Below, piece by piece: positions 28,588 through 32,563 of a stretch of 64,000 nucleotides of DNA; positions within the stretch are counted from its first letter, which is position 1; each line of letters starts with the position of its first letter. This DNA comes from Haloarchaeobius salinus. GTDB lineage: Archaea > Halobacteriota > Halobacteria > Halobacteriales > Natrialbaceae. Position numbers and translations under genes: made by a program. The notes beneath the pieces are model-generated. The model was not told the origin of the DNA. It searched no databases and saw only the letters and a list, made by a program, of their open reading frames with translations. The stretch is taken from positions 62,001 through 126,000 of the forward strand of contig NZ_JANHAU010000002.1 in assembly GCF_024464185.1 (NCBI RefSeq), in the 5' to 3' direction.

Positions 28588-29964
28588 GTGCGACTCGTCC
28601 AGGTCATGATTCCGGCGGGCAAGCGCCGGGCCGTCCTCGACGCGCTCGACGACGCGGGCGTCGAGTACGCGCTCACGGACGAGGTGAGCGGTCGGGAGTA
28701 CACCGCGGTCGTCTCGTTCCCGCTCCCGACGGAGGCGGTCGAACCCATCCTCGAACGGCTCAGGGAGGCGGGTATCGAGCGGGAGTCCTACACGGTCGTC
28801 CTCGACGCCGAGACGGTCGTCTCGCAGAAGTTCGAGCGGCTCAGCGATGAGTACGCCGAGGACGAGGAGACGAGCGGCCGCATCTCGCGCGAGGAGCTGA
28901 AGGCCCAGGCGCAGCAGATGGCACCGGATATCTCGACGTACGTCCTGCTGACCGTCGTGAGCGCCGTCATCGCCACCGCCGGGATATTGCTGGACTCGGC
29001 GGCCGTCGTCGTCGGTTCGATGGTCATCGCGCCGCTCATCGGCCCGGCGATGGCGGCCAGCGTCGGCACCGTTCTCGACGACCGTGACCTGTTCACGCGG
29101 GGGGCACGGCTCCAGCTCCTCGGGGTCGTCGTGGCCATCCTCGCCGCCGCCGTCTTCGCGGTGGTGCTCAAGGAGGTACACCTCATCCCGCCGATGGACG
29201 TGACCGGAATCGGGCAGGTCCGCGAGCGACTGCTCCCGGATTTCCTCTCGCTCGCGGTCGCCATCGGGGCCGGTGTCGCGGGGGCGACCTCGCTCCGGTC
29301 CGGCGTCTCGGCGTCGCTCGTCGGCGTCATGATCGCGGTGGCGCTCATCCCGCCGACGGCCGTCATCGGCATCGGAATCGCCTACGGCCTCCCACTTGTG
29401 GTGCTCGGCGCGAGCGTCCTGGTGCTCGTCAACGTCCTCTCTATCAACCTCGCCGGCACCGCGACGCTCTGGTACGCGGGCTACCGCCCCGACCAGTGGT
29501 TCCGGACGGACGAGGCCCGGACCGTGACGCTCCAGCGCATCGCGGTGCTCGTCGCCTCCATCGCGGTGCTCTCGGTGTTCCTCGGCGGCGTGACCTACAT
29601 GTCCTACACGACGGCGGCCATCGAGGACGACATGAGAGCCGGCATCGAGGAGACCGTCGACGAGTACCCGGAGGCGACGCTGGTCGACGTCGAACTCGTC
29701 CACGAGGAGAACGTCTACGAGCGTGCGTTCGACCCACGGCCGGAACGTATCGTCGTCACGGTCGCGAGGCCGCCCGGACAGGCGTACCCGCAGCTTCCGG
29801 ACCGGCTTGCGGCGATGCTCCAGAACGGTGACGGGCTCGTCGTCGAAGTGCGGTACATCGACGCGGTGACGGTGTCGGAGCGTGGGCACGGGTCGACGGA
29901 GCCGCGCCGTTCGTCGCTCCCTGCGGCCCCGGTGCAGAACCAGATTCTCGCGCGGCTGGCCTAG
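28588..29964 (+). CDS. TIGR00341/DUF389-family membrane protein
   Basis: This 458-residue protein has a soluble N-terminal ferredoxin-like domain (VRLVQVMIPAGKRRAVLDAL), then about six membrane helices, the first containing LDSAAVVVGSMVIAPLIGPAMA, the hallmark of the DUF389 family. A soluble C-terminal part follows (about residues 345-440). The start is GTG, close behind a GGTGA ribosome-binding match and about 30 bases after a TATA-like GGATTTTT. Function is not known for the family. It ends 4 bases into the convergent NOG1-like gene. Confidence 0.9.
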   Translation: MRLVQVMIPAGKRRAVLDALDDAGVEYALTDEVSGREYTAVVSFPLPTEAVEPILERLREAGIERESYTVVLDAETVVSQKFERLSDEYAEDEETSGRISREELKAQAQQMAPDISTYVLLTVVSAVIATAGILLDSAAVVVGSMVIAPLIGPAMAASVGTVLDDRDLFTRGARLQLLGVVVAILAAAVFAVVLKEVHLIPPMDVTGIGQVRERLLPDFLSLAVAIGAGVAGATSLRSGVSASLVGVMIAVALIPPTAVIGIGIAYGLPLVVLGASVLVLVNVLSINLAGTATLWYAGYRPDQWFRTDEARTVTLQRIAVLVASIAVLSVFLGGVTYMSYTTAAIEDDMRAGIEETVDEYPEATLVDVELVHEENVYERAFDPRPERIVVTVARPPGQAYPQLPDRLAAMLQNGDGLVVEVRYIDAVTVSERGHGSTEPRRSSLPAAPVQNQILARLA

Positions 29965-30929
29965 TTCGACTCCTCGAACGGCAGCTCCAGCTCGTAGTCG
30001 ACGGCCTCGACGGCGGCGTCGAGGACCCCCTGGACGTTCTCGTCCTCGGTGATGCTCATGTACAGGTCGGCGTCGACGTCGCGCGAGCGGTCGGACTTGT
30101 TGCAGACGGTGAGCAGCGGGACGTCCTCGAAGTCGTCGGCGACGGCGTCGCGGAGCGCCAGCTGTGCGTCGAGCGGGTAGCCGCAGTCGCCGCTGGCGTC
30201 GACCATGAACAGGAGGCAGTCACCGAGGTGTGTGAGCGCGGAGATGGCCTGCTGTTCGATGTCGTTGCGTTCGTCGGCGGGCCGGTCGAGGAGCCCCGGA
30301 GTGTCGACGACCTGGTAGCGGATGCGGTCGCGCTCGAAGTGACCGACGCCGATGCCCTTCGTCGTGAAGGGGTAGGACGCCGTCTCGCCACGTGCCCGGG
30401 TGACGGTGTTGACGAACGAGGACTTGCCGACGTTCGGGTAGCCGGCGACGACGATGGTCGGCGCGTCGGGGTCGATGTCGGGAAGGGTCTTCAGGTCGTC
30501 GCGTGCCTCGCCGATGCGGAGCAGGTCGTCCTCGACCTCCTCGACGACGTCGGCGAGCCGAGCAAAGGCCTGCTTGCGGAGCTTGCGCGCGGTGTCGACG
30601 TCGTTGCGTCGCATCCGGCCCTCGTACTCCGAGCGGATCTCGGCGGTCTTGCGTGCCGCCCAGCTCACCTCGCTGAGCGACTGCCGCAGTTCGTCGACGT
30701 CGACGATGGCGTCGGCGAGCTCGTAGTAGAACGGGTCGACCGTGTCGAAGTCGGGCCAGGCCGTGACGACGTTCTCCATGTTGTCGGAGAGGATGTTCGA
30801 CGCCGTCTGGAGCATCGAGGTCTGGGCCTCGTGCCCGGACTTGGCTCGCCCCGAGCGGGCCGCCCGCGAGAACGCCTTGTCGATGAGCTCCTCCGACCGG
30901 GGGGTCGTCGGGAGGTTCTCGAAAATCAT
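29961..30929 (-). CDS. NOG1/Obg-like GTP-binding protein
   Basis: This 322-residue GTPase has a helical N-terminal bundle (about residues 1-155) and a G domain. G1 is GYPNVGKSSF (about 163), the switch region includes YPFTTKGIGVGHF, G3 is DTPGLLD and G4 is NKSD. The domain order matches archaeal NOG1 homologues, which act in large ribosomal subunit assembly. An in-frame GTG lies two codons upstream, but the ATG at 30929 is the likelier start (MIFENLPTTPRSEELID). Confidence 0.92.
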   Translation of the reverse strand: MIFENLPTTPRSEELIDKAFSRAARSGRAKSGHEAQTSMLQTASNILSDNMENVVTAWPDFDTVDPFYYELADAIVDVDELRQSLSEVSWAARKTAEIRSEYEGRMRRNDVDTARKLRKQAFARLADVVEEVEDDLLRIGEARDDLKTLPDIDPDAPTIVVAGYPNVGKSSFVNTVTRARGETASYPFTTKGIGVGHFERDRIRYQVVDTPGLLDRPADERNDIEQQAISALTHLGDCLLFMVDASGDCGYPLDAQLALRDAVADDFEDVPLLTVCNKSDRSRDVDADLYMSITEDENVQGVLDAAVEAVDYELELPFEESN

Positions 30930-31026
30930 GGTCACACGTTGTCTGCGCGGACGTATAAGGCGTTCCTTGTGGGTTCGCTCGCGGAGAGCGTCGGTGGGCG
31001 GGTGCGCGCCGCTCCGGGGGCGCGCT

Positions 31027-32139
31027 CTACACCGCGGCCAGCCACTCCTCGGGGCACCACGCCCAGACGTTGGTCCCGTCGTCGAAGTGGACGCCCCACC
31101 AGGTGTAGCCGTCCTCGTCGACCGGCCCGTTGACGATGTTGCCGCCGGTGTACGCGGGCATCACCTGGACCTTCGGCGCGTCGAGTCCGGGCTGCTCGCG
31201 GACCCACACGTCGGCGGTCGTCTGGACGTCCTGTTCGTCGTGGAACGTCGCGCCTCCTCCGGCTTCGAGGTAGGTCTCGACGGACCAGCCCCACACGTCG
31301 GCGTCGAGCCAGTGCAGCCCCCACCAGGTGTAGCCGTCCGCCTCGACGGGGCCGTTGACGACCTCGGCGGTGGTGTCGGCGGGGAACGTGTCGACGAGCG
31401 TCGCGCTCGTGGCGGGCTGTTCCCGGGTGTTCAGGTCGGTCGTGTTGTGGACGATGTCGCCGTCGGCGAAGGTCGGGTCGCCGCCGCCACCGCCACCGCC
31501 GCCGCTCCCGTCGGTCACGAGCGACATGAAGTAGTCCCAGTCCCACGTGTCGCCGGGGTCGACCTTCCCGTCGGTGACCTGCGAGCAGTCGTACGGCGAG
31601 GGGATCTGCTCGTGGCCGATGACGCCGCCCTGCCCGTCGTACGCGGAGCAGGGCGCGATGTCGTACGTCGGGTGCTGCATCGGCACGTCGTACGTCTCGC
31701 AGACGTGCCGGACCACGTCGGCGGTCTGCTGGTAGATGTTGTCGTTGAAGTCGGTCTGGTTGGCGAAGCCCTCCATCTCGATGGAGACGCCGGTGTCGTT
31801 GTAGGGCCCGTTGCCCTGCGTCCACGCCACGTCCTCGACGTTCACCATCTTCGTGATCTGGTTCGCCTGGTTGCCGACCACGTAGTGCGAGGAGACGTTC
31901 GCGTCGGGGTTCTGGAACCAGCTGATGCAGCCCTCGTAGCTCCCCTCGATGGTGTGCAGTACCACCCAGCGGACGTCCGAGGCGCTCCGACTCGCGTTCG
32001 AGTAGTTGCTCGGGTCGGCTGGCTGCCAGTCGTCGGCCGGGTCGGCTGCCGTCGCGGTCGTCGCCGCCATGCCCGAGAGCGCGAGTGCGCCGAGGGACGC
32101 AGCCGTCGCCCGCAGGAACTGTCGCCTGTTGCCTGTCAT
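31027..32139 (-). CDS. Tat-exported N-acetylmuramoyl-L-alanine amidase with SH3 repeats
   Basis: This is a 370-residue exported protein. A twin-arginine signal comes first (NRRQFLRATAAS, cleavage likely after the ATTATA string near residue 31). An amidase_2 domain (about 50-210) follows with likely zinc ligands His62, His176 and Asp194 (VLHTIEG, GHEQIP, KVDPGD) and Glu121. After a run of eight Gly residues come two SH3-like repeats (about 225-293 and 305-370), each with the string NGPV, DGYTWWG and a Trp-rich end. The family cuts the bond between the glycan and the peptide of bacterial murein. Archaea have no murein, so an outward, anti-bacterial or scavenging role is likely. Confidence 0.93.
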   Translation of the reverse strand: MTGNRRQFLRATAASLGALALSGMAATTATAADPADDWQPADPSNYSNASRSASDVRWVVLHTIEGSYEGCISWFQNPDANVSSHYVVGNQANQITKMVNVEDVAWTQGNGPYNDTGVSIEMEGFANQTDFNDNIYQQTADVVRHVCETYDVPMQHPTYDIAPCSAYDGQGGVIGHEQIPSPYDCSQVTDGKVDPGDTWDWDYFMSLVTDGSGGGGGGGGDPTFADGDIVHNTTDLNTREQPATSATLVDTFPADTTAEVVNGPVEADGYTWWGLHWLDADVWGWSVETYLEAGGGATFHDEQDVQTTADVWVREQPGLDAPKVQVMPAYTGGNIVNGPVDEDGYTWWGVHFDDGTNVWAWCPEEWLAAV

Positions 32140-32170
32140 GACACGTCATGCCGTGCCAGGGGAGGGGGCA

Positions 32171-32210
32171 AGAAACTTTTTGAACACCAGTTCGGTTGAC
32201 GAAAGTTTCT
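32171..32210. promoter_or_regulatory. Long inverted repeat upstream of the amidase gene
   Basis: AGAAACTTT at 32171-32179 and AAAGTTTCT at 32202-32210 are perfect 9-base arms around a 22-base loop that itself contains GAAC and GTTC. It lies 30-70 bases before the amidase start and just after the hisE stop. It could be an operator for the amidase or the end signal of the hisE transcript. Confidence 0.5.
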
Positions 32211-32239
32211 AGTGGAAATCTCTTATGGTTACCAAACCA

Positions 32240-32563
32240 TCAGCGTCGCTCCGCGAGCTCGGCCCGCAGGTCGTCGACGTCCAGGTCCTTCATCGAGAGC
32301 AGGACGAGCAGGTGGTAGACGATGTCCGCGCTCTCGTGGACCAGCTCGTCGTGGTCGTCGTCCTTCGCCGCCAGGACGAGTTCGGTGGCCTCCTCACCGA
32401 GCTTCTCCAGCACGGCGTTCTCGCCCTTCTCGTGGGTGAACAGGCTGGTCGTGTACGAGCCCTCGGGGAGGTTCTCCTTGCGGTCCTCGACGACGGCGAA
32501 CAGCTCGTCGAGCACGTCGTCCATCGAGCCGTCGTCGGGCGTCTCCGTGGCGTCACCGCTCAT
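32240..32563 (-). CDS. hisE: Phosphoribosyl-ATP pyrophosphatase
   Basis: This 107-residue all-helical enzyme catalyses the second step of histidine synthesis, cleaving phosphoribosyl-ATP to phosphoribosyl-AMP and pyrophosphate. The MazG-like metal motif is complete: GEEATELVLAAK (about residues 56-67) and HESADIVYHLLVLL (about 76-89). The start overlaps the stop of the DUF151 gene by 4 bases, and the chain is of normal HisE length with an extra acidic N-terminus. Other his genes are not in the window. Confidence 0.94.
   Translation of the reverse strand: MSGDATETPDDGSMDDVLDELFAVVEDRKENLPEGSYTTSLFTHEKGENAVLEKLGEEATELVLAAKDDDHDELVHESADIVYHLLVLLSMKDLDVDDLRAELAERR

Follow-up and report, generated by a model that had tools for sequence, protein, structure and literature searches.

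Haloarchaeobius salinus is a salt-loving archaeon without a murein wall of its own, and one of the genes in a 64,000-nucleotide stretch of its genome (contig NZ_JANHAU010000002.1, positions 62,001 to 126,000; hereafter the window) raises the question of what such an organism does with an enzyme of the kind that cuts bacterial walls. The product is very probably an extracellular zinc-dependent N-acetylmuramoyl-L-alanine amidase that targets the walls of bacteria in the same brine. In the mechanism we propose, the amidase would fold inside the cell and then be exported as a folded protein by Tat, and its two SH3-like repeats would hold it on bacterial peptidoglycan. With one zinc ion liganded by His62, His176 and Asp194, and with Glu121 as the general base, it would cleave the amide that links L-alanine to muramic acid (MurNAc-L-Ala). 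The outcome would be lysis of bacterial neighbours or the release of nutrients from them.

The gene is complete, as an earlier note on this DNA had claimed: its frame runs on the minus strand, as do all features of the window described below, from an ATG at position 32139 to position 31027, and comprises 370 codons with no internal stops (protein P0002, 370 aa). Its third-position GC is 0.957, similar to that of its neighbours, and relatives 94-71% identical occupy the same locus in four other genomes; these features show that it is a real gene rather than a chance reading frame. It is the only gene with the Amidase_2 domain (PF01510) in the source genome. The earlier note presented it as a striking single case, and here its account has to be corrected, since a search for homologues recovered PF01510 in 50 of the 391 sampled haloarchaeal genomes, representing 20 of the 86 genera of the class, and the phenomenon has been published. 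An inverted repeat, AGAAACTTT ... AAAGTTTCT, lies at 32165-32211, upstream of the start codon, is nearly kept in a sister species (G002), and is possibly an operator or promoter element. A scan with a consensus that does not cover archaeal promoters gave no promoter match.

The N-terminus of the protein, MTGNRRQFLRATAASLGALALSGMAATTATA, judged by sight, combines the twin arginines of an RRQFLR motif with a hydrophobic stretch and an end of small residues. These features recur in homologues, and the twin arginines are invariant in 12 aligned haloarchaeal proteins. This agrees with the Tat-type signal proposed before, which would span residues 1-31 (MTGNRRQFLR...TATA; 32047..32139) up to a putative cleavage point, and suggests that the amidase is probably exported via Tat. 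The mature protein is acidic (pI 4.05, with Lys and Arg making up 3% of its residues), as expected of a protein that works in brine. Such a composition does not fit the mode of action of LysC, which kills without its active site through a cationic tail (PMC7404271).

The catalytic domain occupies residues 54-196 (31552..31980), where Pfam detects Amidase_2 with 78.8 bits against a cut-off of 26 (E 6.1e-22), an assignment that the AmpD-type profile match and the fold match share. The residues named as zinc ligands in the earlier note were numbered correctly and are kept in homologues. Among 45 homologues, His62 (31954..31956) is present in 44, that is, in all that cover the position, the remaining row being truncated; His176 (31612..31614) is invariant in 45/45; and position 194 (Asp194, 31558..31560) holds Asp in 30 and Cys in 15. 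The predicted third ligand lies in a KVDPG motif that aligns with KTDPG of AmpD. Both His/His/Cys and His/His/Asp zinc ligand sets are known from solved type-2 amidases (PMC7404271). Glu121 (31777..31779), aligned with the catalytic-type Glu of AmpD, is likewise invariant in 45/45.

A search of the PDB with the single amidase sequence gave no match; a profile built from the haloarchaeal set placed AmpD first among solved structures (5.5e-12), in an alignment that spans the ktDPG third-ligand motif. The catalytic domain, modelled from 13 sequences with moderate confidence (pLDDT 70.9, pTM 0.76), matches PlyL, AmpD, AmiD, AmpDh2, LytA and AmiA in Foldseek with probability 1.00. The proposed modelling check thus recovers the Amidase_2 fold for the catalytic domain; the full-length model is poor (pLDDT 53) and leaves the SH3 part without a usable model, so the structural reading is that of the catalytic-domain model alone. 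The fold matches also include PGRPs, some of which, in animals, are non-catalytic, and the haloarchaeal protein might by analogy bind or sense murein without cutting it. Non-catalytic PGRPs have lost one zinc ligand, whereas here all the predicted ligands and Glu121 are conserved, which makes a non-cutting binder highly improbable. The amidase shares with AmpD, AmiD and AmpDh2 the catalytic fold, the predicted His-His-Asp ligands and the conserved Glu, and differs from them in its Tat-type signal, its SH3-like repeats and its archaeal host. It is not an AmpD recycling enzyme: its score with the AmpD equivalog model (NCBIfam PRK11789) is 36.4 bits, against a cut-off of 143.

A Gly-rich linker (residues 211-222, 31474..31509) connects the catalytic domain to the C-terminal half, for which two SH3-like repeats had been claimed. 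The two-copy internal repeat is real: its copies span residues 223-293 (31261..31473) and residues 296-370 (31030..31254), and residues 223-293 align end to end with residues 297-370 at a BLOSUM62 score of 158. The SH3 assignment is less firm, as Pfam SH3_3 reaches 23.9 bits (E 4.9e-5), below its cut-off of 27; the second repeat is below the cut-off, and the module of the first exceeds it in several homologues. The SH3 half gave no matches in the PDB or among plasmids. The number of repeats varies within the genus, with one in the orthologues of two sister species (L067 and L068, in G001 and G003) and two in the amidase of the window.

The domains that accompany related amidases give the best evidence on the substrate. 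Two haloarchaeal proteins, L055 (same genus) and L041, carry SH3 repeats and then a glucosaminidase after the amidase, L051 and L035 carry two PG_binding_1 domains there, and in L167 and L169 similar SH3 modules precede M23 peptidases. These fusions to glucosaminidase, M23 endopeptidase and PG_binding_1 point to peptidoglycan as the substrate. PF01510 occurs in 8 of the 11 sampled haloarchaeal genomes with an above-cut-off glucosaminidase, compared with 50/391 overall (p 5e-6), and in 5/8 once three single-protein fusions are set aside (p 9e-4), both p-values ignoring kinship among the genomes. The source genome lacks the murein glycosyltransferase PF00912, so that no self target is evident. 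Taken together, the murein-cutting partners and the absence of PF00912 suggest that the wall the enzyme would cut is most likely bacterial. The earlier reading of a murein-type amidase stands as regards its completeness, its full set of active-site residues and a host without PF00912, with export as a probable feature.

A target in the archaeal envelope, whether a polymer or a glycoprotein of the cell itself or of rival archaea, is very unlikely. Some archaeal walls do contain amide-linked glycans. As Strock et al. point out, the ligands of binding domains can also be of other kinds (PMC12352652). Against such a target stand the murein-typical fusions and SH3-M23 proteins, the AmpD-like active-site motifs, and the presence of the family in 13% of sampled haloarchaeal genomes, an ill fit for envelope housekeeping.

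Several further proteins with related domains were observed in the compared genomes. One sister species carries a second, dispersed copy (L055/L069, G003 contig 1), in which amidase, SH3 repeats and glucosaminidase form a single protein with two murein-cutting domains. In two other genomes (L119 in G352, L113 in G234) a glucosaminidase domain lies about 2 kb or less from the amidase, as if the pair were perhaps encoded together. Two proteins (L166, L170) combine a Tat-like N-terminus and SH3 repeats with a conserved C-terminal part to which Pfam gave no assignment; they possibly represent another class of wall hydrolase, and a SleB-like appearance noted by eye is not claimed. The only M23 domain of the source genome (L070, contig 2, 426807-427094) belongs to a frame of 397 residues that contains hydrophobic segments like those of membrane proteins and in which no Tat signal was seen by eye. 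To judge from its sequence, this protein is probably not a secreted murein hydrolase.

The amidase lies within a conserved block of genes, NpdG-Trx-PdxT-BFN-HisE / amidase / Nog1-DUF389, all named from sequence. Its immediate neighbours are a HisE-like gene of the phosphoribosyl-ATP pyrophosphatase type upstream (32240..32558) and a Nog1-like GTPase gene downstream (29961..30935), identified from sequence and synteny. We compared the loci corresponding to this junction (30935-32240) across genomes (L065-L068, L078-L086, L104, L156). The junction holds the amidase in four species of the genus, the source species included (G000-G003), as well as in Halorubellus salinus (G011). Two other species of the genus (G004, G005) keep the whole block with nothing at the junction, and PF01510 is absent from their genomes, which shows that the amidase is dispensable. 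Where present, it is under purifying selection: its dN/dS against the 94% identical orthologue is 0.15, and its neighbours range from 0.07 to 0.19.

This setting bears on whether the gene might be a lysis gene (endolysin) left behind by a virus of haloarchaea or by some phage in passing. Endolysins of Streptomyces phages do share the domain at 30-39% identity, and endolysins of the PlyL/PlyG type resemble the amidase, as does the autolysin LytA, in the catalytic fold and in joining a catalytic domain to a region for wall binding, which in the amidase is putative. Those proteins, however, belong to phages or to murein-bearing bacteria, whereas the amidase is acidic, has a signal sequence of its own and lies outside any viral context. 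The Tat-type signal, a housekeeping neighbourhood that is kept from genus to genus, a locus shared by five genomes, and the lack of close relatives on viral contigs, where distant ones reach 23-31% identity, make this origin extremely unlikely. With no virus or provirus context and no close viral relative, we reject it.

In a tree that included a small bacterial sample (10 bacterial and viral sequences), all haloarchaeal amidases lay to the same side of a weakly supported branch (46/96). The nearest bacterial relatives in the plasmid set are actinobacterial. Two Streptomyces phage rows that a first tree had placed inside the archaeal clade, with a branch length of 2.5, were dropped as an artefact.

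The same chromosomal neighbourhood is occupied by amidases of a second lineage. In one other genus of the family (g6) and one genus of another family (g49, family f7) the amidase adjoins Nog1, BFN or HisE. These proteins form a separate clade with Cys at the third ligand position; those of the window genus and Halorubellus form a clade with Asp, and a single clade of all junction amidases was rejected (p-AU 2e-58). The Cys-type clade mixes members of two taxonomic families, a pattern that suggests transfer from one family to another into one and the same chromosomal place. In other genera a small membrane protein and a helical protein rich in Cys are encoded between HisE and Nog1, so the site may be open to inserts of any kind. 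The double occupancy can be read in two ways: amidases may have arrived twice at a site prone to insertion, or the position may be old and other copies may have left it.

The dN/dS of the amidase lies within the range of its neighbours, its third-position GC matches theirs and its pI is 4.05. This is a settled gene, old and stable in position, which has been lost repeatedly and is no recent arrival. A fuller history, to which we give slightly less than an even chance, is that of an archaea-specific amidase family that has long resided at or beside the HisE / Nog1 junction and has undergone many clean losses. Its Asp-type and Cys-type lineages would have occupied the place independently or by replacement, and its binding or second catalytic parts would have been swapped (one SH3, two SH3, or SH3 with glucosaminidase). 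Halorubellus salinus also has a second copy that is truncated (L024), and a copy in Halorussus litoreus is frameshifted (L020); both suggest that amidase genes are decaying in places.

Archaeal murein hydrolases with antibacterial action have been published, as the earlier note stated, so that its general idea was right in kind and already in print. The GH25 lysozyme of Aciduliprofundum boonei, an antibacterial murein hydrolase viewed as horizontally acquired (eLife 2014, PMC4241558), is like the amidase an archaeal hydrolase of murein type, although it belongs to an unrelated glycosidase family. In a 2025 survey of 3,706 archaeal genomes, Strock et al. report modular peptidoglycan hydrolases in nearly 5%, with a patchy spread within Halobacteriales and a Sec or Tat signal in 32% of the archaeal hydrolases (PMC12352652). 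Their definition of a modular hydrolase asks for at least one Pfam wall-binding domain; at a share of 32%, an export signal counts as supportive rather than defining. Two such enzymes of Halogranum salarium B-1, Woldo (M23) and Danwoldo (glucosaminidase), both exported by Tat, kill the halophilic bacterium Halalkalibacterium halodurans according to the same survey. The amidase is of the same general kind: haloarchaeal and modular, with a Tat-type signal, a catalytic domain followed by C-terminal repeats that would bind the wall, and a patchy spread. It differs in catalytic class, Woldo and Danwoldo joining M23 or glucosaminidase to two PG_binding_1 domains, and the amidase joining Amidase_2 to two SH3-like repeats, and also in its conserved chromosomal junction. 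Their killing has been shown experimentally, whereas the amidase is known from sequence. The source genome has no counterpart of either enzyme, as it encodes no PF01832 or PF01471 protein and its sole M23 protein is membrane-like. A haloarchaeal protease-precursor system described in 2026 (PMC12893001) concerns a different protein.

The use to which the enzyme is put could be less aggressive than these parallels suggest. It might serve scavenging, digesting the walls of dead bacteria for amino sugars and peptides with no part in killing. Long retention at one site and purifying selection fit a nutritional role as well as they fit an arms race, and no toxin, transporter or immunity partner adjoins the gene. 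On the other hand, the two haloarchaeal murein hydrolases tested by Strock et al. kill live bacteria (PMC12352652). Enzymes whose targets are intact walls typically have a module that binds the wall. We regard a purely scavenging role as a substantial possibility, if a rather doubtful one.

The main text of Strock et al. names neither Halorubellus nor Amidase_2, and its supplement may list the gene or its relatives (PMC12352652). As far as could be checked, three things are new: the occurrence of the amidase + SH3 type in this lineage, a chromosomal place that stays fixed where the gene has not been cleanly lost, and the use of the neighbourhood of the junction genes by two amidase lineages. 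To the archaeal murein hydrolases with experimental support the gene adds a candidate from a further catalytic class, a zinc amidase with SH3-like repeats, and the sister species with and without the gene offer a natural case that can be tested. Salt-stable amidases may also serve as antibacterial enzymes in brine. If the family has indeed been held stably at this junction, some haloarchaeal lineages would have kept action on bacteria as a stable trait for long periods, as opposed to the transient gain and loss described for M23 enzymes.
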